Shown here piece by piece: positions 13,613 through 52,597 of a stretch of DNA of 64,000 bases. The stretch's first letter is position 1. Every line of letters begins with the position of its first letter. The translations under genes and the position numbers were made by a program. The notes beneath the pieces were generated by a model. It ran no database searches. It saw only the letters and a program-made list of their open reading frames with translations, and was not told the origin of the DNA. The DNA comes from Aspidiotus rigidus (Eukaryota > Arthropoda > Insecta > Hemiptera > Diaspididae), in NCBI GenBank assembly GCA_035079385.1, contig JAVHKY010000047.1, forward strand, positions 992,001 to 1,056,000. The letters run 5' to 3'.

Positions 13613-13739
13613 TTAGAAGCCATTGCAGACGTTGCAATGGCAGCGGGGAACCCGCAATTCCTTAACTCGACCTCTCAGGTGGTGTGGAACTGAGTTGATA
13701 TTCTTGTCATATAATTCAAATCGAAATTATCATTCTACA

Positions 13740-14212
13740 TTCCCTCCTATCATATATAGCTCGAGAGTCGAAATTCTTCTAAGTCCCCCTTCTATCATAT
13801 ATAGCTCGGAAGTCACGATTCTTCCAAGTCCCCCTCCTATCATATATATCTCAAGACTCGAAATTCTTCTAAGTCCCCCTCCTATCATATATAGCTCGAG
13901 TCTCAAAATTTTTCTAAGTTTTTGGTTGGACGGCGGACGGTAGCTCGAAAATCAAAATTCTTCCAAGTCCCCCCCCCCTATTATATGTATATAGCTCGAG
14001 ACTTTACATTCTTCCAAGTCCCCCTCCTATCATATATAGCTCGAGTCTCAAAATTTTTCCAAGTTTTTGGTTGGACGGCGGACGGTAGCTCGAAAGTCAA
14101 AATTCTCCCAAGTCCCCCCCCCCCCGTATTATATATAGCTCGAGACTTTAAATTCTTCCAAGTCCCCCTCCTATCATATATAGCTCGAGACTCGAAATTC
14201 TTCCAAGTCCCG
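13740..14212 (-). repeat. 45-bp satellite array, about 10 units
   Basis: Tandem copies of a unit built around 'tcctatcatatatagctcg', then 'gactcgaaattcttc' and 'aagtcccc'. Twice (about 13918 and 14063) the array is interrupted by the same 'ttttggttggacggcggacgg' type block, giving a higher-order repeat of roughly 145 bases. The unit length is a multiple of three, so long open frames appear (13623-14215) that are not genes. Confidence 0.9.
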
Positions 14213-14227
14213 TAACCTAACCTAACC
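14212..14227 (-). repeat. Short telomere-like (CCTAA)n run
   Basis: About 2.5 units of CCTAA follow the satellite array directly. TTAGG is the common arthropod telomere motif. This run is far too short to be a telomere and could be chance or an internal scar. Confidence 0.35.
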
Positions 14228-14363
14228 TGCGAACGTGGGCGGGACGCGGACGCGAACGTTTTCTGAGGATGTAATCTCCTAATAAAATGGATAGCGGGTT
14301 GCCCGCTAAAAATCCATGATCACCTTTGCAACTAGCGCTACCTAGTGTAGGTTACGCCACCTA

Positions 14364-15413
14364 TTACCGAATGACCCCTCCCTCAGCGACGCCGCCGATC
14401 TTTTTTAGTTTCCATGCGCATCGCCGCAAGACAAAACGTTCCTTTTCAATTGCGTGGATACTACTACTGTTAATTGAAGCTCCAGAACAAACGTTGCGTT
14501 GCGTCTTGCGACGATGCGCGGCAACTGAACAAGATAATATGAGAACGCATTTTCTATCAGAAAACAGTTCTAGGTTTTCAAACGATTCCCAATTGTTGCG
14601 TGGTGTTAAATTATTGCTCTTTGCAACATGTTAAACATCATCAGGCAAAACAAAAAAAGAAAAAAAAAAGAGAAGAAGAAGAAGAAGAAATAAACTGTAC
14701 AGTTTGTTTAGTTCTCAGTTTATTTCGATGGTATGAATTTTTCTCTAATTTTGATCAATGTTGACAATTACTGAAATTCAAATGAATTTTTTTAAATAAT
14801 AAAATTAGAGATATTACCTAAAAATGAACTTTTATTTAATTATTTTGGATTCAATCAATAATTTTAAATTGTTTTGCGAAAACAATTAATAAAAATCATT
14901 TTTTAGAGTTTCAATTTTATAAATTTTTGCATCAATATTTTTTACGGATTTCAATTTTTTAATTTGAAAAGTTGATATATTATTATCTCAAAAAAGACAG
15001 ATCTTCTTTTTCTTAATTAAATATTGAGTATTGATAAGAAGGAAAAAATTCATTCTTTCAAAACTCAAGATATGATTTTTTTTTTTCTCTACAAATATCA
15101 TTCAATTAATTTGATTATTTTTCATTTCAATCGTGGGTAGTAAAATATTATAAAATATAAAAAATATAATTAATATCATTCATTTATATTACTATTATAA
15201 TTTTGAATATAATTATGAATTCAATAAGTCAAATAAAAAGAAAATACTTGCAATATGTAAAATTCAAATCCTGACTCACGTCCATTAAAAAAATCTTTTA
15301 CATCATCATTATTAATTATTGTTGTTTAAATCAAAATAAAATAATGAATTATCAAATAAAAATTCTTAATTCATATTATTCAAGTCGATCATATTTAAAG
15401 AAAAAAAAAAAAA
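14364..15413 (+). repeat. ~1-kb AT-rich repeat, copy 2
   Basis: Second copy of the repeat at 12590-13612, about 1775 bases downstream. The similarity begins at 'attaccgaatga' and stops in an A-rich tail (about 15400-15413). A GAA/AAG microsatellite (about 14670-14692) replaces part of the long A-tract of copy 1. The pair flank the hairpin-bounded satellite element. Confidence 0.85.
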
Positions 15414-15722
15414 AGATGATGAAAATTTTAGTAATTTATCATGAAAACAAAATCATTATTTTAAGATACAAATAAAAAATATAATTAAATGACCTACTTT
15501 TACTACTGTTTAGTTCGCATTTCTCTTTATTTCTGTCTATTTTTACATTTTGTTGTCTCGTGATGGTGTTCAGTATTTCTGTTTACTTTGATATGTATCT
15601 GTAAGATATAATCAAAGCAATTTTCACAAGGAGATAGTCCGCCCCTCTTCAGGCAATTTGAATTTCAACTTTTAGGCTATAAATATGAATTGCGATTTCA
15701 GAGGAGGCGAGTGTTAATACAG

Positions 15723-15923
15723 CTTTTCCAGTATTCCGAATTGCATACGTATTCCCCTACGAGTTATCGAGTTGATGATATTTCTAACATTGCTCCAATG
15801 GGTGTTGCTGGATTCCATACTCATTCTCATTCTGAAGTAGTTTGCCATAAGAGCAATGTTAGAAATACCACCAACTCGATAACACGTAGGAGAATACGTA
15901 GGCAATTTGGAATACTAGGAAAG
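15723..15923. repeat. 200-bp palindrome (long hairpin)
   Basis: Arms 15723-15795 and 15851-15923 are reverse complements with a few mismatches, separated by a 55-base loop. The mirror symmetry produces similar open frames on both strands (84 and 63 codons), which are not genes. It could be a foldback/MITE, or a transcript from it could fold into a long hairpin. I see no clear target-site duplication. Confidence 0.85.
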
Positions 15924-15944
15924 CCCTATATTCCAAAAAGTTGA

Positions 15945-18900
15945 AAATTTTGATTTTCGAGATGATATATTTACATGAGGGTGATCGGGAGTAATCCTGA
16001 CTTCCTAACTAAGTATTCATAATTTTTTTTTTTTTTTTTTTTTTAACGAGCATTTAAGGAACACAACCGGGCTATTAGCTCGACGAATATTACATATGAG
16101 TATAGGTGTAATTTACATTTTGGCATGATGAGTTAGGGATGAATATGGTGATGGTAGTAGTGTGCGAATTATTACTTTTATATGTGTATAATATATATTT
16201 ATTGATAAGTATATATAATTTTTTTTTTTTTTATACATGGAGGAGTAAAATTGGGTGAGGCGTATGTATTGGAGGGAGGAGGTTATTGAATAATGAATAG
16301 TGGAACTTGAAAAAATCTTATTCAGTGGTAGTACATTGAAAAATTTCGATTAATCTTTATAATATACATAGATTCCAATCAATTATCAAAACCAAATTCG
16401 GTAAGGACTTATTCAATTTCTAATTTTCCCATCGCACCAATGAACACATAGGAAAGATGTCATTTCAATCACACGAGGTGTCATCCTTTTCGTACGCTTA
16501 TTCAACTCGATTACATTTTCGAACGTTCACGCTTTCAAAAAATAACCAGCAACGCACTAACGACGTTTCATAAAGGATAAAATGGTGTAGGTAGAAAACA
16601 TTGATGATACATAGGTCCACCACCCGTTTCGTGGAAATGCTCTAAGAAGCTTTAGCCTCTCACTTCATAGCAAATATCACGAGTCACTAGCATGAAAGTC
16701 TGTTCCAGGCCTTTAGAAATCCGTGCGATGAGAAACATTAAAGTGACAAAATTAATTTCACTAAAAAATACATCGTCGCGAGTTGACATCTCACCTATAT
16801 CCAGTTAAAATTTACATTTCATCGAGTCAAATTGAATAAAAATGTTTTTCGGCATTTGTACACGCTTTCGACCTCTCGCATAATCATTATATTCTCGCAG
16901 AAAAAAATGATTTTAATGAGGGCGAGTCGACTCGTGACAACGGATTTCTTCTAGAATTTGTCAAGCTTTCTCTTCCTTTTCTGCGTTCGAGGATATTTAT
17001 CGTAAAGGGGCATTTGCTACCCATTACGTTTCTCGAAGTTTGTATTACAAGATGATAAAATGAATGAGCTTCCGCTCGCCCGCCTCATTCAACTAGATTT
17101 TCGGTTAGAAAATTTTGTCAATTAATAAATCACGTTGATAGTATTTTTGATCAATGTATTTACGCGAGAATCCGACTTCTGACCAAATATTTCTAACCTA
17201 TAATCCTTCTCTGTCAATGATTATATCCAATTTATACTCCATCCAGTGCACGGTTGACCTTCCAATTTTTCTATAATCTATTCGTTTTCACTTTTGCTGA
17301 TTTTTGATACGCTTTACAAAAGCGTTCTCGTTCCGAAACCTCATAATCTAAAGACTGGGGTGGCGGAAGGTCGAACGGAATGATTGAGTATTTTTATTTG
17401 ACCACACAAACTTGAAAATGCTCGGATAATTAATTTCAGCGAATAGATTTAGTGACCAATAGAAACGAAACTTCTTTAAATCTACGCGACTCGTTTAACG
17501 ATTCATCTTCAGAACAAGTACGTACAGGATGAAAAAAAAAAAAAGAATATTCATGAGAAATATTCATAAATATCCTGATTAAAAGAGTCGTAGACTCTGA
17601 ATTTATGGGAGAAAATTATCGTTGAATCATTATCATTATTAAAACAGCGAAATGAGCAAGACCAAATGTACACGATTTTGATGAAAAGTGGCAATCATCG
17701 AATATTGGTAAGATAGAGTCGTTCCATTACCGAATAAACTGCCACATCTTTTAGGATTGAAAATATAAAGGCCCCCCAACGCCGAAAGAAATGAGATCCG
17801 ATTTATCATCAACACTGAAAAATTACTTCTTTGTTTTCATACTCGTAGAGAGTAATTGTTTGAATTTTGGTCATTTATTACTTAAAGCGCGAAATTTAGG
17901 GGAAGTAGCGCAATTTAAACGGGTACGTTACTTTCTTCGACGACCTAGTCCGCGACTCTTATTGAGAAACCATCTGACTTCGCAATAATGCAGAGTATTT
18001 CGGCTGGAAACGAATAAAATAACGTTTTTTTGATGTTTCGAAACTCAGTATAACAGGGCATCTTCACATTTCAGTAACGAAATACGATCCGTATTTATTA
18101 GGAAGAAAAGCTCTCCAGAATACTGAGGAAACTTTGGCTGCTCTATTTATTGTAACTTAACGTTAAATTATTATGAAAATAATGTGTTTCGGTTTGCAAA
18201 CGCATTCCCTCTCGCTTCCCTATAGCTTTTCAAACTTTTCTATTGTTATACCAACGCTTTTCTTACGAGCAGTTTGTTCATCTACTAAAGTATTTACCCA
18301 GAATAATTTTTCTCTAATTAAACGATAATGAAACGAAGAACTTAGTTATAAGAAAAACGAAAAAAGGAGGAAGAAAAATATGGATCGTAACCTTTGGACT
18401 CAAAAATCAGACACAAATATAAAAATGGAGCAAACAGTTTGGAGTTATCCTAGCTATAGTCACGAGATGTACGGAATTATTTTTTCATATTTTGTTTTCT
18501 CTTTTTTCAACGAATATCCGGAAAGATGTCGGCCATCACCATGATTGGCTTACTCGACGCTTTTCATTACTTTTTTCCCCATTTTTTTCCCCCATACTTA
18601 CGGAGATTTACAACCAAAAGCGATTTTAATAGAGCTTATAGAGGAAAACAGCCAGGCCGGAAAAGAGATAAGAACGCCGAGATTAAATGTCTATACATGT
18701 CGTTCGGTCTGCAAAGAAAGGTCTCAGTATGCAAGGAACATCGGTTCATCAAAAAAGGGAAATAGATACGGGTTTATGAAATAAAAATGTGAATATCCAA
18801 TCAAGCATGAAACTCTCGTCTACAACGAAGATTTATATTTACTCATAAATGCACACGATGGGTATAATTTCATAACACTGTGATTTTCAGTTAATTACGA

Positions 18901-20960: not shown

Positions 20961-21043
20961 CTTCATTAAAAATACAGTATGTAGATTCTAGATTTCATTC
21001 GCCGAGTCTTCAATCATATTGTATGGAATTGAACAATTAGTAA

Positions 21044-21066
21044 TGAAGAGAGAGAGAGAGAGAGAT
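21044..21066 (+). repeat. (GA)n microsatellite
   Basis: About nine GA units, directly upstream of the short PLE relic. Confidence 0.8.
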
Positions 21067-21074
21067 AGGAAGCC

Positions 21075-21265: not shown

Positions 21266-21519
21266 GTGTTACTGATAGCCGTGCACTCGCATGATGTGGA
21301 GGAATCCTTTTCCGAGACACAAGAAGACAATCATCTCCTTTGTATTGTCATGCTCATGAATTCCAATATTTGAAACATTGTCACCTCAACTTGAGAGGAG
21401 ATTCCTGCACTTCATGGAAGTGCACGGCTCCCAGTAACACAGTTTGTACCTATACGACTTCAGGGGAACAAAAATAAACATTCAACACATTAAAGTAAAG
21501 GAAATGAATCTTAGGGGTG

Positions 21520-22789: not shown

Positions 22790-24725
22790 CCGACCAAGGC
22801 CATTTTCCCCCCTTACCCGACTAGAGCCTTTCATCTTCCTTATTCCAAAAATTCAGTCACTCTTCTCGACGCCATTGAGGACGTCACTCCTTCTCCAGGT
22901 TCTTCTTTAGTTTTGATGTTGTAGGTCTGTTCCCACACATCTCTAAAAACCCCACTCTTCGATCTCTAGATGAGCTCACCTTCCTCACGAATAAATCATC
23001 GAATTTTCCAAACCTCTTGATACTTGTTCAACACTTAACTTTTGTAAATTCAGGGATAATAAATCCCATGAGTTTCCTGGTGAAGTCGGTATACCAATTG
23101 GTTCCATCTACGGCTCACTTATTTATGAAGCTTTTGTGCATACAATCGAAACAGATTTGTTTTTTCTGTATCACTCCCACGGTTCATGTTCTCACAGGAA
23201 CATCGATTACGTCTTGTGCCCACGGAATGATTCCAAACCCTTCCTAAGTGAGTTTCTTAACCTTCTTAACAGATTTTATCCATCTACACATTTCACAGAG
23301 ACGTATTGGCTCAGATTTTTTAGGCCGGGTAAAAAATCCTCATCTTCGAATTTTCAATAATTTTCTCGCAACCTTCGTAAGCCTTTTCGGGTTGCGCCAG
23401 CACGACATCGCTGTTCGCGGGGCCATTAGCTATTTCGCGGTAAATGACTCCGCAAACGCCTCTTTTTGATTTGGACTTTATGCGGGACCTCTTGCGATTT
23501 TGCGGCAAATGACATTGCAAACACCTCTCTTCCAATTTGGACTATTTACGGGACCTTTTGCAAATTTTCTGGCAAATGATACTGCAAACGCCCCTTTTCC
23601 AATTTGAACTATTTGCGGGATCTTTCGCAATTTTCTGGCAAATAACACTTCAAACATTTCCGATTTAGACTATTTGCGTGACCTTCTACTATGTTGTGGC
23701 AAATGACACCGTGGACAGCTCTTTTTCAATCTGTACTATTTGCGGGACTATTTGCGATCTAATTGCAAGTGACACCGAAAACGTCTATTTCCCGATTTGG
23801 ACTATTTGCGGTACCTTTTGCGATTTGGCGGCAAAATGGCACAGCAAATGCCGCTGATCCAATTTGGACTATTGGCCAATGCCGTGCTGGATCACATCCC
23901 TCGTCAGGCAACTTAAACACTTATGGTCAAACTTTCAAGCATTTTCTCGCGGGCCCCATACAACTTTCGCGGGACTTTTCTGGCTGTAGATCCTCAACCA
24001 CCAGGTCGGGACAGTGCCACACTAAGAATCCCTATGATCAAATTCTTCGATCTCTCGCTTCTCATTGTTCAGGAACACCATCAGTTGAGTATCTTCTTAC
24101 CTATGGATCATCTTTTTGCCTTATGAACAGCAACCTCGCGGCTTTCAATTCCACAATCCACTGACTAGTTTAAATTCGGATGGACCTTTCTGATTTCGCA
24201 TTCGTAAATTCCTTGCTAAGTCCAACAACCTTAATATTAACGTTGAGAGAATGATCCGTAAAGAAATCATTATCACCTTCCTCCCTTCTTCCATACTCTG
24301 AAGAAATCGAAAAGAGACAAATAGATCAGGCTTCCCTATCTTGGGAAATCTTCCTGTGATTTAAGTCACATTTTCCGCTACTTTGGTTTTCGTCCCGCTT
24401 ATTACAAACAGTTTTCTACTCCTAAGCGTTTCCTTGGGAGAACCAAGGATGAAATTCCTCGTGAAGAGGAGAGTGGAATTGATAGAACTGCTTATCGAGA
24501 TTGCCCTGCCTTCTACGTAAGTAAGGCTAGCAGACAGGTCAATTTTAAGATTGATTTCAGCCGTGTCTGATTATCTGATTTCCACCGGCTATAGCTACAA
24601 GCCTATAAAGGGGGTTCACATCGAATATTCACGTCTGAAACGATTGGCATTAGAAGAAATCGAAATCATGCGTCATTATCTTCGTGCTGACATCACACTC
24701 CTCAACAGGTTTGTTCCTGAGTAAG
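22790..24725 (+). pseudogene. Penelope-like element relic, split by a 66-bp minisatellite
   Basis: The RT half is visible as 'LLDAIEDVTPSPGSSLV' (about 22863-22913), a decayed catalytic region 'HRNIDYVLCPRNDSKPFLSE' (about 23193-23250) and 'FLNLLNRFYPSTHFTE' (about 23252-23300). After a minisatellite insertion the GIY-YIG half resumes. It reads 'FRYFGFRPAYYKQF' (about 24372-24415), 'YRDCPAFYVSKASRQVN' (about 24494-24545) where the PLE consensus has FY-x-GKTSRQ, and 'LEEIEIMRHLRADITLLNRFVPE' in two blocks (about 24650-24722). Stops and shifts are numerous. The 3' end is near 24725. Order and content match the PLE at 57.7-58.4 kb. Confidence 0.85.
23390..23885 (+). repeat. 66-bp minisatellite, about seven units, locus 1
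   Basis: Units read roughly 'ggcaaatgacaccgcaaacg', 'cctcttttccgatttggact', 'atttgcgggaccttttgcg'. Flanking blocks ('ttaggccgggt' upstream, 'atggtcaaactttcaagcat' downstream, 'cttttctggctgtagatcctc') also occur around the second array at 40.0-40.7 kb. Minisatellite and flanks therefore travel as one element, inserted into a PLE at this locus. Confidence 0.85.
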
Positions 24726-27816: not shown

Positions 27817-28510
27817 GACATGTTCCATGTCTTTTCTCTCGTCGGACCCCGATTTTGAAACTCGCGAGTACACCCCCCCCGTCAAGAGAAATCTCTACCC
27901 CGTGGGTGATTCAGAAATTCGCGAGTACACCCCGCGTAATAATAATAATTAATTAATTAATAAATAAATAAATAAATAAATAATTAAATAATTAAATAAA
28001 TAAATAATTAATTATTTAATTAAATAATTAAATAATTAAATAACTAAATAATTAAATAATTAAATAATTAATTAATTAATACTTAAATAATTAAATAATT
28101 AAATAAATAAATAATTAAATAATTAATATAATTAAATAATTAAATAAATAAATAAATAATTAAATAATTAAATAATTAAAATAAAATTAAATAATTAAAT
28201 AAATAAATAATTAAATAATTGAATAATTAATATAATTAATAAGTAGAGGGGGCGAACGAGCGGAGCGAGTTCGCGCTACCTCATATTTCTCATAGAAGAC
28301 TTGAATTTTCTCGTACCATTCCAATACAACAGCGAGATCGCTCGTTCGCCCCACGAAAGTTGATACCTCAAAATATAAAACACCCACAATTACCTCAAAA
28401 TATTTCTCATACAAGGCTTATACGACGCCAAGATAGGTAAAGGGGTAAACGAATAATATCTCACGAACACTTGACCTAGTAGAAGAATTAATAATAAATA
28501 AATAAATGAA

Positions 28511-28543
<33 letters not shown>

Positions 28544-29148
28544 GAATAAATAAAGGCTGAATAGTCGAAATTTTTCCAAGTCCCCTAGACTTGAATTGTC
28601 TCACACCATTCCAATACAACAGCGAGACAGGGGGCGAACGAGCGGAGCGAGTTCGCGCTACCTCATATTTCTCATAGAAGACTTATACGACGCCAAGATA
28701 GGTAGAGTTTTCCAATCCCTCTTCTTATCATATATGGCTGGATAGTCGAAATTTTTCCAAGTCCCCTAGACTTGAATTGTCTCATACCATTCCAATACAA
28801 CAGCGAGACAGGGGGCGAACGAGCGGAGCGAGTTCGCGCTACCTCATATTTCTCAAAAAAGACTTGAATTTTCTCATACCATTCCAATACAACAGCGAGA
28901 TCGCTCGTTTGCCCCACCGAAAGTTGATACCTCAAAATATAGAACACCCATAATTACCTCAAAATATTTCTCATACAAGACTTATACGACGCCAAGATAG
29001 GTAAAGGGGTAAACGAATAATATCTCACGAACACTTGACCTAGTAGAAGCCTAGACTGACATATTTCATGATGACTGATAAGATATAAAAGACATGGAAC
29101 ATGATTTTCATTTATTTGGCTATGCCAGAAAATTTAATAATACTACAA
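27817..29148 (-). mobile_element. GACATG-type hairpin element, copy A
   Basis: Begins at the terminal hairpin GACATG-TTC-CATGTC (27817-27831). Going inward there is a 'cgcgagtacacccc' block, a long AAAT/AATT-type simple repeat (27936-28240), and two rounds of a block containing 'gggcgaacgagcggagcg' and 'cgacgccaagatag'. One 45-bp satellite unit lies near 28715-28762. Near the other end the matching sub-terminal hairpin ACATG-GAA-CATG (about 29093-29105) is followed by 'ggctatgccagaaaattt' and 'aataatactacaat'. It shares both ends with copies at 37.8-39.4, 48.5-49.9 and 52.2-52.6 kb. No protein is encoded. The open frames inside it that recur between copies are by-products of DNA similarity. 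Helentron-like is my best guess at the class. Confidence 0.8.
27936..28242. repeat. Tetranucleotide-type AT simple repeat
   Basis: About 300 bases composed almost entirely of AAAT, AATT and related units, internal to hairpin element copy A. Equivalent TTTA tracts occur in copies B and C. Confidence 0.9.
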
Positions 29149-31309: not shown

Positions 31310-32310
31310 GAGAGTCGAAAGTTTTCCAAGTCCTCCTCCTATCATAATAGATAAAACAGTTTCCCTGTTAAAACGACGGCATCCTTAACGAAGTTAAACG
31401 GGGAACGCAAAGAACCTGTTTTATGGGTCATATGGGATTTGGTATTGAGAATTCAAGGAAGCCTAGACCTAGATGAAGCTAGTATAAAGGATCTACTATA
31501 AGCCTCGTATAATATATTTCGAGAGTCTCAATTTTTCTCGAATATCAAGCTCTGTATGAAAGGAGGGGGACTTGGAAAAAATTGACTCTCGAGCTATATA
31601 TGATAGAAGGGGAGTAAGAAAAATTCCTAGCATATATGGCTCGAGAGTCGAAATTTCAACAGGGATCCTGTTCTATAAGGGCGCTTTTTGAGAAATTTGC
31701 CGTGCGCCGTCCGCCGTCCAACAAAAAACTCGAAAAAATTTCGACTCTCCAGCTATATAATATATGAAAGGAGGGGGACTTGAAAAAATTTCAATTCTCG
31801 AGCTATACATGATAGGAGGGGGACTTGAAAAAAATTCCAACTCTCGAGCTGCATACGATAGGGGGACTTGGAAAAATATATAGCTCGAGAGTCAACATTG
31901 TCCCTCTCTAATCATATATATAGCTCAAGATTCGAGAAAAATTTAGACTCTCAAACTAGGCTTTCTTTATCCTAGCTTCATCTAGGTCTAGGCTTCCTTG
32001 AATTCTCAATACCAAATCCCATATGACTCATAAAACAGGTTCCCTGCGTTCCTCGTTTAACTTCGTTATGGAAGGGACTTAGAATACCTTTTCTGAGTCT
32101 GCCGCTGCATATCTAGCTCATTGAAGGGGCCAAGTCAATTGGTACCTGAAGCATTGCATATCTAGTTACTCGAAGGGTCTATCTTTCAGGCTATATACAC
32201 AGACCACCGAGGGTGGCTTGGAAAATTTTAGATCTTCGAGCTCTACCGGCCGGTCGGACGGCGGACGTTTTCTCCACAAAATCCCCCGAAAACAGGTTAC
32301 CTGTTAGAAC
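31310..32310. mobile_element. AACAGG-type hairpin elements with 45-bp satellite, partly inverted
   Basis: Two copies of one element end face each other: about 31355-31520 on the minus strand and 31965-32095 on the plus strand. Both contain 'aggcttccttgaattctcaa', 'accaaatccc', an AACAGG/CCTGTT hairpin and 'gtttaacttcgtta'. Between them lie about seven 45-bp satellite units (31540-31960). Hairpins are AACAG-TTTCC-CTGTT (31355-31369), AACAGG-GAT-CCTGTT (about 31666-31680) and AACAGG-TTA-CCTGTT (32291-32305). 'gtgcgccgtccgccgtcc' follows one hairpin as it does at 49.16 kb. Rearranged relatives of the cleaner copy at 49114-49732. Confidence 0.7.
31540..31960 (+). repeat. 45-bp satellite array, locus 2
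   Basis: Units with 'aggagggggacttg', 'aaaatt.cgactctcgagct' and 'atatatgatag', diverged and with switches of orientation (near 31620-31650 and 31880-31930). The same family occurs at 13.7-14.2 and 49.2-49.6 kb. Confidence 0.85.
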
Positions 32311-37811: not shown

Positions 37812-38287
37812 TTGGTCATATTGTAGTATTATTAAATTTTCTGGCATAGCCAAATAAATGAAAATCATGTTCCACGTCTTTTATATTTTATCAGTCATCA
37901 TGAAATATTTCAGTCTAGGCTTCTACTAGGTCAAGTGTTCGTGAGATATTATTCGTTTACCCCTTTACCTATCTTGGCGTCGTATAAGTCTTGTATGAGA
38001 AATATTTTGAGGTAATTGTGGGTGTTCTATATTTTGAGGTATCAACTTTCGGTGGGGCGAACGAGCGATCTCGCTGTTGTATTGGAATGGTATGAGAAAA
38101 TTCAAGTCTTTTTTGAGAAATATGAGGTAGCGCGAACTCGCTCCGCTCGTTCGCCCCCTTTCTCGCTGTTGTATTGGAATGGTATGTGACAATTCAAGTC
38201 TAGGGGACTTGGAAAAATTTCGACTATCCAGCCTTTATTTATTTAATCGTTTAATTATTCAATTTTTTAAATATTTAATTATTTAAT

Positions 38288-38323
<36 letters not shown>

Positions 38324-39427
38324 TTATTAATTCTTGTACTAGGTCTAGTGTTCGTGAGGTATTATTCGTTTACCCCTTTACCTATCTTGGCGTCGTATAA
38401 GTCTTGTATGAGAAATATTTTGAGGTAATTGTGGGTGTTCTATATTTTGAGGTATCAACTTTCAGTGGGGCGAACGAGCGATCTCGCTGTTGTATTGGAA
38501 TGGTATGAGAAAATTCAAGTCTTCTATGAGAAATATGAGGTAGCGCGAACTCGCTGTTGTATTGGAATGGTATGTGACAATTCAAGTCTAGGGGACTTGG
38601 AAAAATTTCGACTATCCAGCCTTTATTTATTTAATTGTTTAATTATTCAATTATTTAAATATTTAATTATTTAATATTATTTATTTATTTATTTATTTAT
38701 TATTAATTCTTGTACTAGGTCCAGTGTTCGTGAGGTATTATTCGTTTACCCCTTTACCTATCTTGGCGTCGTATAAGTCTTGTATGAGAAATATTTTGAG
38801 GTAATTGTGAGTGTTCTATATTTTGAGGTATCAACTTTCAGTGGGGCGAACGAGCGATCTCGCTGTTGTATTGGAATGGTATGAGAAAATTCAAGTCTTC
38901 TATGAGAAATATGAGGTAGCGCGAACTCGCTCAGCTCGTTCGCCCCCTGTCTCGCTGTTGTATTGGAATGGTGTGAGACAATTCAAGTCTAGGGGACTTG
39001 GAAAAATTTCGACTATCCAGCCATATATGATAGGAAGAGGGACTTAGAAAATTTTCTAATTATCAATTATATTAATTATTTAATTATTTATTTATTTAAT
39101 TTTTTAATTTTTTTTTATTTAAATATTTAATTATATTAATTATTTAATTATTTATTTATTTATTTATTTAATTATTTATTTATTTAATTATTTAATTATT
39201 TATTTATTGATTTATTTAATTATTTATTTATTTAATTAAATATTTATTTAATTATTTATTCATTTATTTATTTATTATTAATTATTATTACTACGCGGGG
39301 TGTACTCGCGAATTTCTGAATCACCCACGGGGTAGAGATTTCTCTTGAGGGGGGGGAGGGGGGGGGGGGTGTACTCGCGAGTTTCAAAATCGGGGTCTGG
39401 CGAGAGAAAAGACATGGAACATGTCAA
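37812..39427 (+). mobile_element. GACATG-type hairpin element, copy B, with internal triplication
   Basis: Starts 'ttggtcatattgtagtatta', then 'ttctggcatagccaaataaa' and the sub-terminal hairpin CATG-TTC-CACG (a decayed CATG stem). The block 'actaggt.cagtgttcgtga' to the TTTA tract is present three times (from about 37926, 38339 and 38714), giving units of about 413 and 375 bases. One 45-bp satellite unit is near 38995-39045 and TTTA simple repeat occupies 39055-39288. The 3' end is GACATG-GAA-CATGTC (39411-39425) followed by AA. Non-coding; repeated short frames are by-products of the triplication. Confidence 0.85.
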
Positions 39428-39914: not shown

Positions 39915-40680
39915 CCCCAATTCTAATGGTCAAACTTTCAAGAATTTACTCGAAAACCTCAGAGAATCTTCGTGGGCTTTTTCTGACCTGGTATCACCCG
40001 GTGCCCTCTGCGCTTCACGGGACTATTAGAGATTTTGTGGCAAATGACACCGCGAAAGCATCTTCTTCAATTAGGACTATTTGCGGGACCGTTTAGCCTC
40101 TTACCGCGAACGGGGCTTTCCTGGTTTTGACTATTTGCAGGACTATTTGTAATTTTGTGACAAATGACGCCGCAAACGCCTCTGTTCCGATTTGGACTAC
40201 TTGCAGAAATTTTGTGTGATTTTGCGTAAATGACACCGCTAGTGCTTCTTTCCTGATTTGGACTATTTTCCTTCTCGCACCGCAAATGACACCTCAAACG
40301 CCACTTTTCCAATTTGGATTATTTGGGGGACCTCTCGCAATTTTGTCGCAAATAACACCGCAAACGCGTCTTTTCTGATTTGGACTATTTGCGGGATCAT
40401 TTGCAGTATTTTGGTGGCGAACGACACCGCGACCGCCTATTATTCTGCGCTATTTACGGCACCTTTTGCGATTCTGTGACAAATAAAACCGCAAACGCCT
40501 CTTTTCCATTCAAGATTATTTGTTAAAGTCACGCTGGATGACATTTTTTAGGCCGGGTGACTAGCATAACGGGCGCTCATGGTCAAACATTGACGAATTT
40601 TCTCACGGACGCCATAAAAACTTCGCCGCCCTTTTCTGACCGGAGATTCTCGGCCACCCGGCGACTCAAAATCGGAGACA
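39915..40680 (+). repeat. 66-bp minisatellite with shared flanks, locus 2
   Basis: About seven 66-bp units (40025-40520) of the same sequence family as at 23.4-23.9 kb. Flanks 'atggtcaaactttcaagaat' (about 39927) and 'atggtcaaacattgacgaat' (about 40580), and 'ttttttaggccgggtg' (40545), match the other locus. As there, a PLE relic lies beside it. Confidence 0.85.
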
Positions 40681-43090: not shown

Positions 43091-43224
43091 CCAAGGAGCT
43101 CCATTTCCCCAACTCCCCATGACGGAATTTTGAGTCGCGACTAATGCCATAATTTTGTTCACATTTTGATCAATTTCGTTCAACAAATTTTAAATTTTAT
43201 TCAGTCGTAGTTTCCTCGCTACAG

Positions 43225-43700
43225 CTATTTCAAATTTGGGGGCCTGGGGAAATGCAGCCCCTCCATCTCCAAATTTTGGGTTCAAATCCATGTGATAATT
43301 AAGTTCACATTTTGTTTAACAAATTTCAAATTTTGTTCACTCGTCGTTTTCTCGCTACATCCATTTCAAATTTGGGGGCCTGGGGAAATGCAGCCCCTCC
43401 ATCTCCAAATTTTGGGTTCAAATGCATGTGATAATTAAGTTCACATTTTGTTCAACAAATTTCAAATTTTGTTCACTCGTCGTTTTCCCGCTACATCCAT
43501 TTCAAATTTGGGGGCCTGGGGAAATGCAGCCACTCCATCTCCAAATTTTGGGTTCAAATCCATGTGATAATTTTGTTCAATTTTATTCAACAAATTTTAA
43601 AGTTTGTTCACTCGTCGTTTCCCGCTACAGCCATTTCAAATTGGGGGGGGGGGGAATGCGGCCCCCCATCTTCGAATTTCGCATTCAAATCTATGTGATA
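43225..43700 (+). repeat. ~135-bp tandem repeat in the left arm
   Basis: Four units with 'tttcaaatttgggggcctgg', 'ggaaatgcagcccctccatc', 'tcaaatccatgtgataatt', spaced about 130-138 bases (near 43231, 43369, 43500 and 43630). The matching place in the right arm has about one unit. Confidence 0.85.
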
Positions 43701-44079
43701 ATTTTGTTCACATTTTGTTCAATTTTGTTCAGGAAACTATGGATTTTGTTCACCCATCATTTCTCCGCTACATACATTCAACATTTTGGGGCCTAAGGAA
43801 ATGTCTACACTTTCCCTATCTCATCTATGAATTTCCAAGCAGAATTCACCCATATTTGCCAATTACTCACATCTCATATTTTGGGACAGGCATGAAATAC
43901 CCTTGCCTATCCTCCTTATTTTTGAACTTACATAACATTTCATTCTATTCAATTTTCTAAAATAAATACTGTGCATAATTACAGGGTGCGCCAAAAACAT
44001 GTTAACAGTTGAATGGGAATTTGGGCTAAACCTGTCGTAGCGCAAAAATGCAAAACGCTCATCCTTCGTCATGAGCTCG

Positions 44080-44639: not shown

Positions 44640-45290
44640 TTGGGGAAATTTTGACCTTCTTTAGAGCCGTTCATCCATATTGAAGCTTCGTCGAGTCTTT
44701 TGGGTGATTTTTTCGTACCCAGCGCTAAATCGCACTAGAGAATTGTACAAAACTTCGAGGATTACGCAATTTTTAGCGGGGAACCCGCTATCCCTTTTGT
44801 TGGAGGTACTTCCAGGAATTTTTCGTCCGCGTGCGAGGCGAGCGAGGTTGATGACGTCACCGCGAGGAGAGGGGGACTTGGAAAAATTTCGACCCTCTAG
44901 TCATATATGATAGGAAGGGGACTTGAAAGACGACGGCTTCCTTGAAATGGCAGCGCGTTCCGGTTGTCATCACGTCATGATTTTAGGACTTGGAAAACTT
45001 CAGGCTCTAGGGGACTCGGGACAGCGGGTTCCCCGCTGCCATTGCAGTCCTGCAATAACATCTAATTTTTCTTTAGTTGGAGGAATTTTGACCTTCTTTG
45101 AGGCCATACATCTATTTTGTAGCTTCGTAGAGTCTTTTGGGTGATTTTTTTGGACTCAGCACTAAATTTCACTAGCGAATTGTACAAAATTTTGAATATG
45201 ACGCAACTTTTCATTTTGGGGAAATTTTGACCTTTTTTGGGCCCAATAATCCATTTCTATGCTTCGCAGCATTTTGTGACTTTTTTTTTT
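44640..45290 (+). repeat. ~140-bp tandem repeat, split by an insertion
   Basis: Units with 'ggggaaattttgaccttctt', 'cttcgtcgagtcttttggg', 'gcgaattgtacaaaattttg' begin near 44643, 45078 and 45218. The first is interrupted at 44770 by the AGCGGG-type hairpin element, so its remaining sequence gives an approximate empty site. Confidence 0.8.
44770..45060 (+). mobile_element. Short AGCGGG-type hairpin element
   Basis: Starts 'tttttAGCGGGGAACCCGCT' (hairpin 44775-44789). It contains a G+C-rich 'cgtccgcgtgcgaggcgag' patch and 1-2 units of the 45-bp satellite (44870-44935). It ends with the hairpin AGCGGG-TTC-CCCGCT (45023-45037), a second hairpin ATTGCAG-TC-CTGCAAT (about 45040-45055), then 'aacatCTAA' before a T run. 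Both ends match the element at 13.6-14.3 kb. A 16-bp hairpin a few bases before CTAA is what a Helitron 3' end looks like. Non-coding, about 290 bases. Confidence 0.7.
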
Positions 45291-46059: not shown

Positions 46060-48527
46060 AGGGGGGACTTGGCACATTTTTCAGGGTGTCCATTCGTGAT
46101 GATGGTATTTGGAACTTTCTCACTGTATAATGAAGTCTATTGTCAAGTACATCACAAATCATTGGGACGATTTCTCTCACACAACAGTCACGAGGCTATA
46201 TAATATGAAATTTCTATATAGTCCGCTGACGACTACAAACCTTATATGCTGCAAAATTGTACTCATAAGGCGATGTGGTGCGCCGTTAGTACGAACTTAA
46301 AAGTACACCACTGAATTATTGAAGGAAACTAATTTAATGCGACAATTCTAAGAAATCTCCAGAGCATAAAAATTTATTAAATTTTCCTCCTTATCGTGGA
46401 CTGAAGTGCTGCTACACAAGAATTCAACACAACTAATTGACTAAAATATAGTCCTATACTTCCTACGTATCTCATTCTATTACATTTAACTTACACAAGT
46501 TCTTTTTTTTACAAAAGTACGAGGTATATGATATGGCCATCCCGCTTGAAAAAAGAAAATCAACTTTTAATGATTATACAGAAAAGTTGAGCCAAACTTT
46601 TTCTAGTATAGGTGTCTACCCAAAATAACCCAGAAACAAGTCGAAGTACAAACTATTCTTAAAGTTACAACAGGCATACGCCTATGTCAAGTCACCTGTT
46701 AATACGAACGAAAACTTCGACATACTTCATAGTTTCCCAGAATATTCCTTACGCCTCTCGTAAGGACAGATTCGTACTTCCAAACTTGTAGTAATACAAA
46801 ATTATCGTAAGCCCAAAAAAGCTACGACCCTGTTTTACAGCAGCATTGTGCGGTGATAAATCAGGGCAACTTGCTTTGAATGCTGGGTTGAAAGTTTCGC
46901 TACCTTATTATTTGTCACTTTCACATCTAGCAAAAACGCCAATTTAGAAAAATGAGACGACATTTCCTGTTTGGCTTAAAGTTAACTATGTAGTTATCGA
47001 GTCGAGTGAAATATTGATTTGCTAACTCATTTTTTTACGAAGCGTACTGCGTACACCGTTTAGTTAACTGGTGTAAATAATAGGGTTACTTCAAACCTTT
47101 AGAGGATGTGAACGGAAATTATCCTGGTGAAGTAAGTAGACAGTAAACTCATTTGTATAATTTGAGAAATCTATATTACATTTGAAGAACTCGAAACATT
47201 TACTCATTTCATTCACTTTTTCCTAACACAACCCGATACCAACGCGCAAATATTCATGAGTGAGTCTCATTTGGCTGTTCGATATCATCAGGGCGATAGT
47301 TGCATGAAATAATAATGGATTAAAAAATACAGAATGAAAATAGTGAAAATTAAAGTGAATCAGAATTATCAGCACGACACGACAAGCCTGATGCGTGTAT
47401 TACCAGCGTTTATTATGACTAACGCCCGATTTGACTAGCTTATATTTGTCCATTTCATGCTGTATTACTATTCCGATTGCGATTTTGAACTTCACTTTTG
47501 AGACACTTTCAGCTTTGTTCTCACCGTATATTGTGAGTGACGGAGATAGAATGTTTAAATCAGATACTGCTCACACAGTTCAATGTATGAAATAAGAAAA
47601 CGAGTATTTTGACCCATGTGAAAGTACTCCACGAAACTTCGTCGCGCGAAATATAATAAGCAAAATGTGAATAATGCTGTAACAAATTTGACACGACATA
47701 ATTTCCAACGAAGAAAAAGTTCGACGTATCTCATCGGGTTTTCTTCCGCTAATGAACTTCGTAAGACCGTATATATAAATCGTCGAGGTAGCACTTTTGA
47801 ATAGAACATCAGAAAAATTTAGCCTAAACGGTTGACGTTCATGAATTTCTTGTAAGGCTTCTCACAAGACTTAATTGAAAGGCACCAGTTCGAATACTCG
47901 CATCAATAGAGTAAGTTACGACTCATCGCAAAAGATAAGGTTCAATTACTGAATGAAGTAAGTACGGCGTATGCTAAATTTTTCTTATTTATGAGCTATA
48001 CGTTTAGGTGTTGCCATCAATAACGAGAGAGATGTGGGTTCAGTCACGACATAAAACATAACTAAGAACATCAAACGGAGCAGTAGTTATTGAGATAAAT
48101 GACATCAAAACTATCAAATTATTATCATTTCTGGCAGATTTCAACAGGAAACTTGTTTCATGAGAGGGGAGGAGAGTATTTGAGTGAAACATCGACCCTC
48201 TGCCGTGCTTACGGCAATTTGAGGTTCTAAAGGAAGTGGTGCCTCCGATTTATTTAACCTAATCGAAGAACTTTCGAACTTTGAGACACATACAATATAT
48301 GTGCATATCAAGTGGGGTACAGGAAAGATTTTGACTATACTGAGCTGCGTATGAGACAATATGGGGGTAGGTGAAGAGGTAGGAGGACTAGGAAAAGTTC
48401 AGACCACCGAGTTTGAATTTCAAGGGAAAAAAATTCAAAAAAACGATATAGTATCGAGATTGTCTATACGCGCGTCTGTAATAATTCATCGCGAGGAATT
48501 AAAACGCGTCGGAGAAGAAAATGTAAC
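46060..48527. other. No gene recognised
   Basis: Frames of up to 84 codons only. No repeats detected by eye. Confidence 0.4.
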
Positions 48528-48939
48528 TTGGTCATATTGTAGTATTATTAAATTTTCTGGCATAGCCAAATAAATGAAAATCATGTTCCATGTCTTTTAT
48601 ATTTTATCAGTCATCATGAAATATTACAGTCTAGGCTTCTACTAGGTCAAGTGTTCGTGAGATATTATTCGTTTACCCCTTTACCTACCTTGGCGTCGTA
48701 TAAGTCTTGTATGAGAAATATGAGGTAGCGCGAACTCGCTCCGCTTGTTCGCCCCCTGTCTCGCTGTTGTATTGGAATGGTATGAGACAATTCAAGTCTA
48801 GGGGACTTGGAAAAATTTCGACTATCCAGCCATATATGATAGGAAGAGGGACTTGGAAAATTTTCTAATTATTAATTAATTAATTATTTATTATTATTAC
48901 GCCGGGTGTACTCGCGAATTTCTGAATCACCCACGGGGT

Positions 48940-48990
48940 AGAGATTTTCTAATTATTAATTATATTAATTATTTAATCATATATTTATTT
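48940..48990 (+). other. Empty site equivalent to the AACAGG-element insertion
   Basis: Reads '..ggggtagagatttt' directly joined to 'ctaattattaattatatt'. At 49101-49740 the same two stretches are separated by the ~620-bp AACAGG-type element, with nothing duplicated apart from possible T ambiguity. Confidence 0.8.
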
Positions 48991-49113
48991 AATTATTTAA
49001 TTATTTATTTATTTAATTATTTAATTAAATAATTATTTAATTATTTAATTATTTATTATTATTACGCGGGGTGTACTCGCGAATTTCTGAATCACCCAAG
49101 GGGTAGAGATTTT

Positions 49114-49732
49114 AACAGGGAACCTGTTTTATGGGGGGCTATTTGAGAAATCTACCGTGCGCCGTCCGCCGTCCGCCGTGCGCCGTCCAGCGAAAAACTT
49201 GGAAAAATTTCGACCCTCGAGCCATATATGATAGGAGAGGGACTTAGAAAAATTTCGACTCTCGAGCCATATATGATAGGAGAGGGACTTAGAAAAATTT
49301 CGACTCTCGAGCTATATATGATAGAAGGGGGACTTAGAAAAATATCGACTCTCGAGCCATATATGATAGGAGGGGGACTTAGAAAAATTTCGACTCTCGA
49401 GCCATATATGATAGGAGGGGGACTTAGAAAAATTTCGACTCTCGAGCTATAGATGATAGGAGGGGAACTTAGAAAAATTTTGACTCTCGAGCTATATATG
49501 ATAGAAGGGGGACTTAGAAAAAATTTCGAATCTCGAGCTATAGATGATAGGAGGGGAACTTAGAAAAATTTCGACTCTCGAGCCACATATGATAGGAGAG
49601 GGACTTAGAAAAATTTCGACTGTCGAGCTATATATGATCTAGGCTTCCTTGAATTTTCAATACCAAATCTCATTCGAATCATAAAACAGGTTCCCTGCGT
49701 TCCTCGTTTAACTTCGTTAAGTTCTAATTATT
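49114..49732 (+). mobile_element. AACAGG-type hairpin element, nested, with 45-bp satellite
   Basis: Starts with hairpin AACAGG-GAA-CCTGTT (49114-49128), then a 'gtgcgccgtccgccgtcc' patch, then about nine 45-bp satellite units (49195-49640). The tail follows: 'aggcttccttgaattttcaa', the half-decayed hairpin CAGG-TTC-CCTG (about 49687-49697) and terminal hairpin TTAAC-TTC-GTTAA (about 49715-49728). The insertion lies between a T run and 'ctaatt', with the empty site preserved at about 48940. No coding capacity; the 74-codon frame at 49228-49452 is the satellite read in its open frame. Confidence 0.85.
49195..49640 (+). repeat. 45-bp satellite array, locus 3 (cleanest)
   Basis: Units start at about 49231, 49276, 49321, 49366, 49411, 49456, 49501, 49547 and 49592, so the period is exactly 45 with one 46. 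The unit holds 'aggagggggacttagaaaaa', 'tttcgactctcgagc' and 'catatatgat', that is, a CTCGAG and a CATATATG palindrome. Confidence 0.95.
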
Positions 49733-49797
49733 AATTATATTAATTATTTAATCATATATTTATTTAATTATTTAATTATTTATTTATTTAATTATTT

Positions 49798-49830
<33 letters not shown>

Positions 49831-50204
49831 TTATTAATTATTATTATTACGCGGGGTGTATTCGCGAGTTTCAAAATCGGGGTCCGGCGAGAGAAAAGAC
49901 ATGGAACATGTCAATAAGATCATGTTTTTCTAGACACTTAATTAAGGCTGTAGGAGTTTCTGGACCCTTGAACATTCTTAAGTAAGAGTTCGATTTCATT
50001 GACAATAGTTTACATCTTTCAAACTATTCAGAGTTCCTCTCGAATTTCATACCCAAATTTTATGGCCAATCAAGAATGGACATTGATGCACAAGGGTGGA
50101 GGGTTGTTCTCATTCGTGATAATATTAAAAGTAAGAGAAATTTACGACGAGAAAGGAATACTCCGAAGAGGAGTAAAAACTACAAAGACCGCAGAAAATA
50201 AATG

Positions 50205-51670
50205 AAGCCGAGCGCTTTCGGTTAATAAACCATCATCGGGACTGAAATGAAAGCAACTGACAAGAACGGAGAAGAAACCTTGGATCATTAAGGTTGACCA
50301 AACGAGGGTTCATAACGTGAGTCATAGACGAGTTTAATCAACTCATCTTCCGGAATGTACATGTTTAGCACAGTAATATTATCAGTATTGAGATGACGAA
50401 TTATTTCTATGAGCTCGAGGGCAATCCGTTTAAAGTATGAATTCTCCTTATGAAGGAGGCTTGCGGATCCCTCACCGAAGGTATGACCGCTGTTGATCAA
50501 GTGATCGGCAAATGCTGATTCTCCCACACGTCCCTTCTTCTAGGCCTTCAGGTGTTCGTCTAATCTCACCTTCATCTGGCGGCCGGTTTCACCAATATAA
50601 AAACCTCTACAATCCCTGCATTTCAATTTCTAAACACCACTTTTTTCATCCGCAGGTATACGGTCCTATAACTTAACGAACAATCCTTTGACGGTAGTGG
50701 GATTGTAATAGGCTGGTCTAAAACCGAACGGGCGAAGGGCCCGACCCAATTCAGTAGAGAAGCTCCCTAGAAAAGGGAGACGATCCAACGCAATCTCCGG
50801 TCTCGGGGGAGGGAGGTGGTGGAACCAAGACTTTTCCTCGTAATTTTCCTCTGAACCATCGCTTCAACATCAACATTGACACCATTCACTCTACCCAGGT
50901 GTTTTATAGTCGCCAACTCTTTTTTGAAAGCAGCCTGACTCAAAGGAAAGCGAGTCAATCTGTGGACTAAATAACTGTTAAAAGCTCCTAACTTATGAGC
51001 AACAGGATAGCCGGACTAAAACACCGGTCTTAGTATCCTTTCTGTATATTCCAAACTCATGGATCCCATCTGTAACTGAGACCGACAAATCCAAAAAGTT
51101 GATCGTAAAACCACCAACTTCCAAGTTAAATTTTATGGAAGGGTATAATGAATTGAGATACTTCATAAACTCACCAAGGAGATCTGGATGACCAGTCCAC
51201 GTACAGAGAACGTCATTAACGTACCTGTGCCAGTAGTGTATACGATTGAGTAACACCTGGTCCGAGGAGAAGAGGTCAAGTTCAGACATGAATACTTCGG
51301 AGGTGAGGAAGCCAGGTGATCCAATAGGGATCCCAATTTCATCAGGAACTCGAAAAATTGCAAAAATTCCAGAACCAACAGATATTTAGAAGGTTGAAAA
51401 ATTCTTGGGATTCATTATGCGGGATATTGCAGTTAACCAATAACTGGCCCATACGCTGCATGGTGGCAGCTTTAGGGATATTTGGGAACAGACCCACGAC
51501 ATCAAACGAACAAAGGGTCGCGCCCGGAGGCAGTTTTACATCCTTGAGAGCATCAGCCAAGGACAACGAATTCAAAACCGAATGGGGAGACTCATATTCA
51601 ACACGGTTTTCGAACTAACGGTCCAGGAATTTGGCAAGGAAGTAAGTGGGGGAGGAAAATCCGCAATTTT
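50205..51670 (-). mobile_element. Penelope-like element, 5' truncated and frameshifted
   Basis: Minus-strand PLE. Blocks in order: 'SSPTYFLAKFLDR' (about 51650-51610), 'LCSFDVVGLFPNIPKAATMQ' (about 51510-51450), then a decayed catalytic region with 'YWHRYVNDVLCTW' (about 51245-51200) where the usual YVDD is YVND. 'GGFTINFLDLSVSVTDGIHE' and 'FGIYRKDT' follow, then the 'GFRPAYYN'-type linker and a GIY-YIG region 'CRDCRGFYIGETGRQMKVRL' (about 50625-50560). The C-terminal helix is 'SYFKRIALELIEIIRHLN' (about 50440-50385). At least four frames are used. A hammerhead-like core lies just downstream of the stop (50211-50250). Confidence 0.88.
50211..50250 (-). ncRNA. Hammerhead-ribozyme-like core at the PLE 3' end (decayed)
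   Basis: On the minus strand: 'CCGATGA', then a GGTT/AACC stem with TTAT loop, then 'CGAAAGCGCT'. The hammerhead core is CUGAUGA-stem II-GAAA; one base of the first box differs here. PLEs are known to carry hammerhead motifs in their terminal repeats. I could not find a clean cleavage site and stem I, so activity is doubtful. Confidence 0.45.
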
Positions 51671-51699
51671 GGACTGATAATAATGCGACAGGGCCGTAA

Positions 51700-52229
51700 C
51701 TACGGGGGGGAGAGGGGGGAAAAGGGAGCATACACCCTGAAACTTTTTTTGTCCCCCTTAGGAAATATCGGCAAAGAATGCTTTCTAATCGTAAAACCAA
51801 TTTAAGCCTTTTAGCTCATTAAAAAACTTACTTAAAGACTCTAGCCGATAATTTATTGAACATCATTTCATTCTTGCCCCAATCTGCCCCACCTAGAAAA
51901 ATCGCTTCTCACGGGTCAAGGATACTTACTAATATCACGACATTGCGAATTCTGTACACTTTGCACTGGTGAGATCTCAGCTGTGGTATGGGGGTCCACA
52001 GGGAAAAAGAGTTAAAAAAATTTAGTACGATTTCAGAAAAGATTCCTAAAATATTTATACTTCAAGGACTTTGGTTATAATGACTCAACAATATTATACA
52101 AAGAACCAACGTCAGGGTATGAAGATATTACTCTAACAGTATGGAGGGAGGTCGGTCTCTTGTTGCTCATCTGGGACTTGTTACAGTCAAATTGCTGAAG
52201 TAAATAAATACCGAAGAAAAACAAAGGAA
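51700..52229. other. No gene recognised
   Basis: G-rich and C-rich tracts near 51706-51720; no domain seen. Possibly decayed upstream PLE sequence. Confidence 0.35.
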
Positions 52230-52597
52230 AAAATTTTCTGGCATAGCCAAATAAATGAAGATCATGTTTCATGTCTCTTATATTTTATCAGTTATCTTGC
52301 AATATTTTAGTCTAGGCTTCTACTAGGTCAAGTGTTTGTGAGATATTACTCGTTTGCCCCCTTACCTTTCTTGGCGTCGTATAAGTCTTGTATGAGAAAT
52401 ATTTTAAGGTATCGCCCCACGGGGTAGAGATGTGCACGCGCACGGACACACGCACGCGCACGCGGGGTGTATTCGTAAATTTCGGAATCACTTATCGGGT
52501 AGAGATTTCCACGCGCACGGTCTCTCTTGAGGGGGGGGGTGTACTCGCGAATTTCAAAATCGGGGTCCGGCGAGAGAAAAGACATGAAACATGTCAA
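52230..52597 (+). mobile_element. GACATG-type hairpin element, copy D, short
   Basis: A 370-bp version with both ends: 'aaattttctggcatagccaa' at the left and GACATG-AAA-CATGTC (52581-52595) at the right. The satellite, the palindromic 'cgaacgagcggagcg' block and most AT simple repeat are absent. In their place is a (CA/CG)-rich stretch 'cacgcgcacggacacacgca' (52435-52460). It shows the minimal sequence retained between the ends. Confidence 0.8.

Follow-up and report, generated by a model that had tools for sequence, protein, structure and literature searches.

The stretch of DNA analysed here, called the window throughout, comprises 64,000 nt of the insect Aspidiotus rigidus (assembly GCA_035079385.1, contig JAVHKY010000047.1, forward-strand positions 992,001-1,056,000), and it carries seven main mobile elements, E1 to E7, together with pieces of related copies, all marked by small hairpins. 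An earlier note made from the letters of the window had pointed to these hairpins, as 6-bp stems of several types around a recurring GAA loop, and had found no described family with such features. The hairpin is the palindromic 5′ subterminal inverted repeat (subTIR), or 5′ asymmetric terminal inverted repeat (ATIR), that stands at the T-flanked 5′ end of each element, and the elements are very probably non-autonomous Helentron-type rolling-circle transposons, that is, Helentron-associated interspersed elements (HINEs) with Helitron2-like termini. Their terminal anatomy is the one published for Helitron2, Helentrons and HINEs (PMC3627910, PMC4067079), so the class is well described, and these families were not found named in the portions of the literature compared here. 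In all, over 19,000 sites with such hairpins in a single genome (12,713 + 3,544 + 2,834 + 255) thereby find a place in a known transposon class.

Hairpin-ended elements in the window

The families go by the first six letters of the 5′ palindrome, and the elements are as follows.

E1, 13604-14307, minus strand, AGCGGG family: 5′ subTIR AGCGGG-CAA-CCCGCT (14293-14307) after TTTTT; 45-bp satellite array; on the 3′ side a subTIR copy GCGGGTTCCCCGC (13643-13655), the palindrome CATTGCA-ACGTC-TGCAATG and a T-run end.
E2, 44775-45070, plus strand, AGCGGG family: 5′ AGCGGG-GAA-CCCGCT after TTTTT; one satellite unit; on the 3′ side a subTIR copy (45023), the palindrome ATTGCAG-TC-CTGCAAT and terminal CTAATTTTT.
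E3, 27817-29135, plus strand, GACATG family: 5′ GACATG-TTC-CATGTC after a T-run; 3′ inverted copy GACATGGAACATG; 3′ palindrome TGGC-TAT-GCCA.
E4, 37834-39425, minus strand, GACATG family: anatomy as in E3, with a diverged 3′ copy GACGTGGAACATG.
E5, 48550-49912, minus strand, GACATG family: interrupted by the nested E6.
E6, 49114-49721, plus strand, AACAGG family: nested in E5; 5′ AACAGG-GAA-CCTGTT after TTTT; about ten 45-bp satellite units (49197-49638); inverted copy ACAGGTTCCCTG; palindrome TTAAC-TTC-GTTAA (49708-49720).
E7, 52231-52595, minus strand, GACATG family: AAA/TTT-loop variant GACATG-TTT-CATGTC; no satellite unit listed.
AACAGG-family relic, 31658-32070, plus strand: 5′ AACAGG-GAT-CCTGTT preceded by TTTC; satellite units; 3′ copy at 32035-32046.
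Head-to-tail junction of two AACAGG elements, 31355-31373, minus strand: the 3′ end ...GCCGTCGTTTT of one abuts the 5′ palindrome AACAGGGAAACTGTT of the next.
Further AACAGG 5′ palindrome, 32291-32305, minus strand: loop TAA on the minus strand.

At the 5′ end of the common plan a T-run is followed directly by the 15-bp palindromic subTIR, which reads AACAGG-GAA-CCTGTT, AGCGGG-GAA-CCCGCT or GACATG-TTC-CATGTC in the three families of the window. At the 3′ end stand an inverted copy of most of the 5′ palindrome (usually with a few inner bases), a second palindrome and a T-run; the second palindrome is TTAAC-TTC-GTTAA in the AACAGG family, ATTGCAG-TC-CTGCAAT or CATTGCA-ACGTC-TGCAATG in the AGCGGG family, and TGGC-TAT-GCCA in the GACATG family. 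The ends are asymmetric: the 5′ copy is terminal, and the 3′ copy lies some 32-90 nt inside the element with a further palindrome, its distance from the end being 38 nt in AACAGG (hand count) and about 32 nt in GACATG. Two earlier claims hold in this anatomy, namely that the hairpins lie at element boundaries and that the stems vary between families with their self-complementarity kept.

The list of hairpins itself needed revision. A hairpin scan of the window recovered the six exact 6-bp stems with a GAA/TTC loop (27817, 39411, 44775, 45023, 49114 and 49898), and the AAA loop at 52581 and the TTG loop at 14293 were also right; several other entries were corrected. The stem at 13643, given as 6 bp, is only 5 bp long (GCGGG/CCCGC), and the supposed AACAGG variants turn out to be a hairpin with one stem mismatch at 31355, a hairpin with the loop GAT whose true position is 31658-31672 rather than 31666, and a hairpin with the loop TTA at 32291. 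The TTAAC palindromes had been put at 31373 and 49715 and actually lie at 31385-31397 and 49708-49720. They had also been counted as a fourth stem type; three subTIR families (AACAGG, GACATG and AGCGGG) stand, and the idea of four independent stem families is rejected because TTAAC is the second, 3′ palindrome of AACAGG elements.

Small hairpins are common, and the window has 28 with a 6-bp stem, a 3-nt loop and at least two G/C in the stem, so that hairpins arising by chance in repetitive DNA have to be considered as an explanation. Six of the 28 have a GAA/TTC loop, and 60 order-1 Markov versions of the window gave a mean of 0.6 and a maximum of 2 such hairpins. Across the searched assembly (441 Mb, 102 contigs), sites with an intact stem number 12,713 for AACAGG, 3,544 for GACATG, 2,834 for AGCGGG and 255 for GACGTG, a family met below, against 15, 32, 1 and 12 for the respective reversed patterns, which refutes chance as the source; we give it practically no weight. 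The window hairpins are real and far above chance.

The plan was also recovered by a de novo scan for a palindromic repeat with a downstream inverted copy, run on the window together with 200 kb of sequence from outside it. Ten of its 13 rows are these families (eight distinct elements, with E2 and one copy in locus L023 each appearing twice), and three Markov controls gave 0, 0 and 0 rows. E1 was recovered only in a relaxed scan. Two controls of that scan gave 4 and 1 rows and the real sequence 76, most of which are families already known or inverted repeats of other kinds, and no further family was gained from them.

The dinucleotide TT directly precedes 22 of 24 5′ palindromes, a set chosen by family patterns in which the stem must be intact (the loci of eight had been retrieved with a pattern of this sort); the exceptions are the relic at 31658 (TTTC) and the L023 copy, which has one extra A. 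An empty site exists for E6, in a duplicated stretch at about 48944 that reads GATTTT^CTAATT and is unfilled; compared with it, the filled site has only two extra T and no further target duplication. The fused 3′-to-5′ AACAGG ends at 31355-31373 are what is expected when rolling-circle replication bypasses its termination.

Rep-encoding elements and the class of the window elements

The Rep part of Helitron proteins (PF14214) has at least 151 matches in the genome and was matched in none of 14 control genomes. Seven Rep loci were fetched, of which L029 and L036 are canonical-type and L030, L031, L032, L033 and L037 are others. In four of these five non-canonical loci (L030, L031, L032 and L037), a T-run, GACGTG-GAA-CACGTC and TTTGGCCTAGG follow one another upstream of Rep. 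The stem GACGTG/CACGTC is one paired change away from GACATG/CATGTC of the window, with GAA on the opposite strand. L032 and the adjoining L034 form one 10,699-bp element, which begins with the T-run and GACGTG-GAA-CACGTC, carries DUF6570 and Helitron_like_N (Rep) in one frame, PIF1 in the frame after it and UvrD_C_2 and Exo_endo_phos_2 further on, and closes with the inverted copy CGTGTTCCACG, a pair of palindromes and a T-run. By its predicted domain set (Rep, PIF1 helicase and a weakly matched endonuclease) this element is a Helentron, and the direction of its open reading frames (ORFs) agrees with the orientation assigned to the small elements. Its own subTIR pair is 11 bp long with the stem GACGTG, a partner being taken as an element that encodes Rep, helicase and a C-terminal endonuclease and shares at least 11 bp of subTIR. 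The copy lies 78 nt from the 3′ end in L034 and 90 nt from it in L030, where positions 1830-5738 hold a Rep-encoding Helentron derivative with both ends, including a 3′ end of its own, and an ORF without a helicase match; L030 and L032 are 96% identical over 3.6 kb, and the match ends after the Rep ORF. Two further PF14214 matches, at C54:1436850 and C54:17115665, score like L030.

The anatomy, the copy number, the T-rich flanks, the one empty site, the head-to-tail junction and the Rep/helicase/endonuclease element of the same layout were all observed, and they point to Helentron-type elements. The window elements have what characterises Helentrons and HINEs with palindromic subTIRs: a 5′ palindrome of 12-15 bp, an internal 3′ inverted copy and insertion at TT, without duplication at the one empty site, along with a 3′ palindrome in AACAGG and AGCGGG, as in L030 and L034. 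Canonical Helitrons (Helitron1) are recognised by 5′ TC, 3′ CTRR, a hairpin only near the 3′ end and insertion between A and T; the ends here are instead a T-run followed by the palindrome and a final T-run. The symmetric terminal repeats and target-site duplications (TSDs) of terminal-inverted-repeat transposons are not seen either, duplication being judged at one site. Inverted repeats near both ends, short length, the lack of an ORF and high copy number would nonetheless suit miniature inverted-repeat transposable elements (MITEs), cut and pasted by a DDE transposase. That account is contradicted by the asymmetric ends, with the 3′ copy about 32-90 nt internal and an extra palindrome beyond it, by the single empty site, which shows no duplication beyond two T, by the head-to-tail junction, and by the shared end layout of the Rep/helicase/endonuclease element, and we consider it very unlikely.

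Several observations weigh against the Helentron-type assignment. The second palindrome of the GACATG family has a stem of only 4 bp, E6 lacks the last 12-14 nt or so of the AACAGG 3′ end present in other copies, three of the 13 de novo rows are other inverted repeats, and target duplication is read from a single empty site. Among the Rep loci, L033, the fifth of the non-canonical ones, has no matching ends within 5.2 kb, and L031/L035 yielded no 3′ end. The Exo_endo_phos_2 match in L032/L034 is weak (7.8e-5, below the curated cut-off), the Rep and PIF1 parts of L032 lie in separate open frames, and among the seven Rep loci there was none whose ends are exactly those of AACAGG, AGCGGG or GACATG. 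The earlier note had asked for a longer copy with a Rep between matching ends; what the genome offered is a 10.7-kb element of the same layout whose stem is GACGTG and not one of the window stems.

A user of the HUH/Rep type, which the earlier note thought plausible, is likely given that Rep, helicase and a weakly matched endonuclease occur together in this genome in an element whose ends are laid out in the same way. In the mechanism we propose for the Helentron-type elements, Helentrons of this genome would supply in trans a Rep(HUH)-helicase-endonuclease protein, which would nick the T-rich 5′ boundary at the hairpin and peel off one strand from there. On reaching the 3′ end, with its palindrome and an inverted copy that could pair with the 5′ repeat, the protein would stop, and the freed strand would insert into T-rich DNA without target duplication. 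Rolling-circle nicking and strand transfer by Rep are predicted from the anatomy (the tandem junction and the Rep domain), and we infer that the L032/L034-type protein or close relatives move the window families; the polarity of the strand and what the folded hairpin does are inferred in the same way.

The comparisons that follow concern the compared portions of the cited papers. HINEs of Helentrons are known in the mite Metaseiulus occidentalis, in Culex and in some Drosophila (Thomas et al. 2014, PMC4067079), and they share with the window elements the 12-15 bp palindromic subTIRs, the 3′ palindrome, T-rich targets without duplication, tandem repeats in some copies and, probably, a Rep/helicase/endonuclease partner. 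Their 5′ subTIR is set 2-4 nt in from the 5′ end, and the spacing between 3′ copy and 3′ end is about 38-60 nt; in the genome analysed here that spacing ranges from about 32 nt (GACATG) to 90 nt (L030). Those HINEs also have other hosts, and the likeness is one of layout; the families here share a 45-bp satellite, and a partner with exactly the window ends was not found. Helitron2 (Bao and Jurka 2013, PMC3627910) likewise has a 5′ ATIR 0-2 bp from the end that is itself in a hairpin, a 3′ ATIR upstream of a 3′ hairpin, and insertion between TTTT and T/C without TSDs, with which the E6 empty site, TTTT^C, agrees; compensatory stem changes were already reported there in Culex Helitron2 (Helitron-1N1/1N2_CQu). 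What sets the long element here apart is its weakly matched endonuclease, by which it counts as a Helentron in the narrower sense.

In Fusarium oxysporum, FoHeli1 and FoHeli2 have the 5′ hairpins ‘TCAGCC GAA GGCTGAC’ and ‘T[c/a]AGTCC GAA GGACTT’, that is, a GAA loop on different stems, and an inverted copy 38-51 nt from the 3′ end (PMC5148889). These elements are fungal, lack the endonuclease and close the loop with C-G where the families here have G-C; in that paper's compared portions the GAA loops are printed and not discussed as a rule. DINE-1 of Drosophila shares subTIRs, TT insertion, central tandem repeats and a 3′ stem-loop whose stem varies between species yet stays complementary, with compensatory changes suggested (PMC2374699), but its subTIRs are not palindromic (PMC4067079) and it has a separate 5′ inverted repeat. 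The oyster Cg_HINE has satellite-like arrays between HINE modules, as here, but a subTIR with a separate complementary inverted repeat and no palindromic subTIR, and its group 1 carries Cg170 satellite units (PMC7492417). Viral contigs searched with two terminal patterns gave no matches, and phage records none.

The two canonical-type loci have other features. L029 encodes a single 1,786-aa ORF with Rep and PIF1, by which it is classed as canonical-type, and at L029:7066-7142, downstream of that ORF, lie two strong GAA hairpins with C-G closing pairs, ACGCGAGCAGC-GAA-GCTGCTCGCGT and GGGCCGCC-GAA-GGCGGCCC, a candidate terminus. L036 is so classed by the hairpin GGCGCGCC-GTA-GGCGCGCC followed by CTAG. 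Rep matches are spaced about 4.1-4.6 kb apart at C46:624345/628776/632870, C24:5518322/5522936/5527493 and C65:1480345/1484909/1489330, of which L036 covers the first, and its repeated blocks are 95-97% identical over their longest stretches; these spaced matches on C46, C24 and C65 are probably head-to-tail arrays of canonical Helitron derivatives.

Loop decay and the recurring GAA triloop

That most loops are GAA/TTC, as the earlier note had it, is true of the AACAGG (86/100) and AGCGGG (43/50) sites listed, tallied by hand on the first contigs, and GACGTG gave 43/50 in the same way. GACATG has a frequent AAA variant: its 50 listed sites comprise 32 with GAA/TTC, 17 with AAA/TTT and one with GGA, and the whole-genome count of GAA/TTC is 2,025 of 3,544. 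On the sense strand, the 5′ copy has the loop GAA in E2 and E6, CAA in E1, and TTC or TTT in the GACATG elements. Among hairpins of all kinds in 20 spaced 10-kb stretches of contigs C1-C8, GAA is not the commonest loop: it has 8 of 56 hairpins against 9 for AAA, and five of the eight belong to the known subTIR families.

Allowing one mismatch, AACAGG has 19,658 sites genome-wide (9,769 + 9,889). Exact sites are estimated at about 10,930 (86% of 12,713), which is approximate since the loop share comes from 100 listed sites, and the one-mismatch sites at about 580-590 per position in loop and stem alike. In a sample of copies found by an anchor outside the palindrome, from which a GACATG row at window position 10403 without a palindrome was dropped, loop and stem had each changed in two of seven AACAGG copies, and in one and none, respectively, of six GACATG copies. 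Strong selection on the loop within families is thus rejected, the AACAGG loop decaying at roughly the stem rate by this estimate and the AAA variant being common in GACATG. Individual copies seem to decay evenly, so that any selection would act on source elements, between families. The selection on structure proposed earlier keeps its self-complementary, diverging stems and loses any special protection of the loop within families.

The similar decay of loop and stem in AACAGG (an estimate) also suits another account of the same Helentron-type elements, in which the palindrome is a duplex site for a symmetric protein dimer, no hairpin is extruded and GAA is the central spacer. Two further points favour it: the 5′-sense loop is GAA in AACAGG, AGCGGG and GACGTG as against TTC in GACATG, and hairpin energy tables rate all 64 triloops equal on each of three stems, since they do not tell triloops apart. 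HUH Reps, however, generally act on single-stranded hairpins; the palindromes downstream of the L029 and L030 ORFs are also GAA-looped, on other stems and with other closing pairs; and GAA loops were published for the 5′ hairpins of Fusarium Helitron2 (PMC5148889). A duplex site is possible on this evidence, though not probable.

We also raise, tentatively and as an unlikely proposition, the reading that the terminal hairpins of Helitron2/Helentron elements, from Fusarium to this insect, have in common a GAA triloop (or, more broadly, a GNA one) that is under selection. Rep would then read a folded single strand, with the stem as family identity and the triloop as a common handle, and stems would diversify by paired changes between families as the triloop was kept. 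GAA recurs in the four subTIR families here and in two Fusarium elements (PMC5148889, in its compared portions), as well as in several 3′-side palindromes, where GNA loops occur as GAA twice in L030, GGA in L034, GAA twice in L029 and GTA in L036. Against the triloop reading stand the other loops of 3′ palindromes (TTA in L030, TCT in L034, TAT in GACATG, and TC or ACGTC in AGCGGG), the flipped GAA strand of the GACATG family and the lack of special loop conservation within families; common descent of a GGAAC core could, moreover, account for the four families here. The unusual stability of GNA loops, to which the earlier note appealed, is a weak argument for G-GAA-C because the exceptional mini-hairpin, GCGAAGC, is closed by C-G, and the energy tables give no triloop preference. 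To our knowledge, end recognition by Helentron HUH transposases has not been settled by structure, and a GAA triloop that held in other Helitron2/Helentron families would suggest, in concrete and testable form, which features of their ends eukaryotic HUH transposases recognise. We found no literature pairing helitrons with hairpin loop and compensatory change, or with triloop; in the compared portions of PMC4067079, PMC5148889 and PMC4344730, GAA loops occur only in PMC5148889, and those of PMC4067079 contain no whole-word GAA.

Satellite and other repeats of the window

Units of the 45-bp satellite are present in E1-E6, so that the claim that all elements carry it is right for six of the seven main elements and fails for E7 (52231-52595), which has no unit in the repeat tables. 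A simple account of its dispersal would be that it travels as transposon cargo. The satellite was not found in loci L030-L035 (28-nt core, up to 5 mismatches). Relative to the 5′-3′ sense of the element, it runs in E3, E4 and E5 in the direction opposite to that in E1, E2 and E6, and the GAA strand behaves likewise. A tandem array with a 136-bp period at 43173-43722 (about 4 copies, 90% matches) is unrelated by eye to this satellite, and a further tandem repeat, also dispersed and with a period of 66 bp, occupies 23417-23873 and 40116-40265.

Ten ORFs of the window gave no Rep match; their matches are to reverse transcriptase (RT), weakly to GIY-YIG and RNase H, and once weakly to Noggin, the last taken as spurious. 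A 475-nt inverted repeat, 100% complementary (57581-58055 and 58435-58909), overlaps a Penelope-like ORF with the weak GIY-YIG match. The window carries Penelope-type and other RT pieces, and the best-matching named RT relative, at 42% identity, is in the psyllid Cyamophila.

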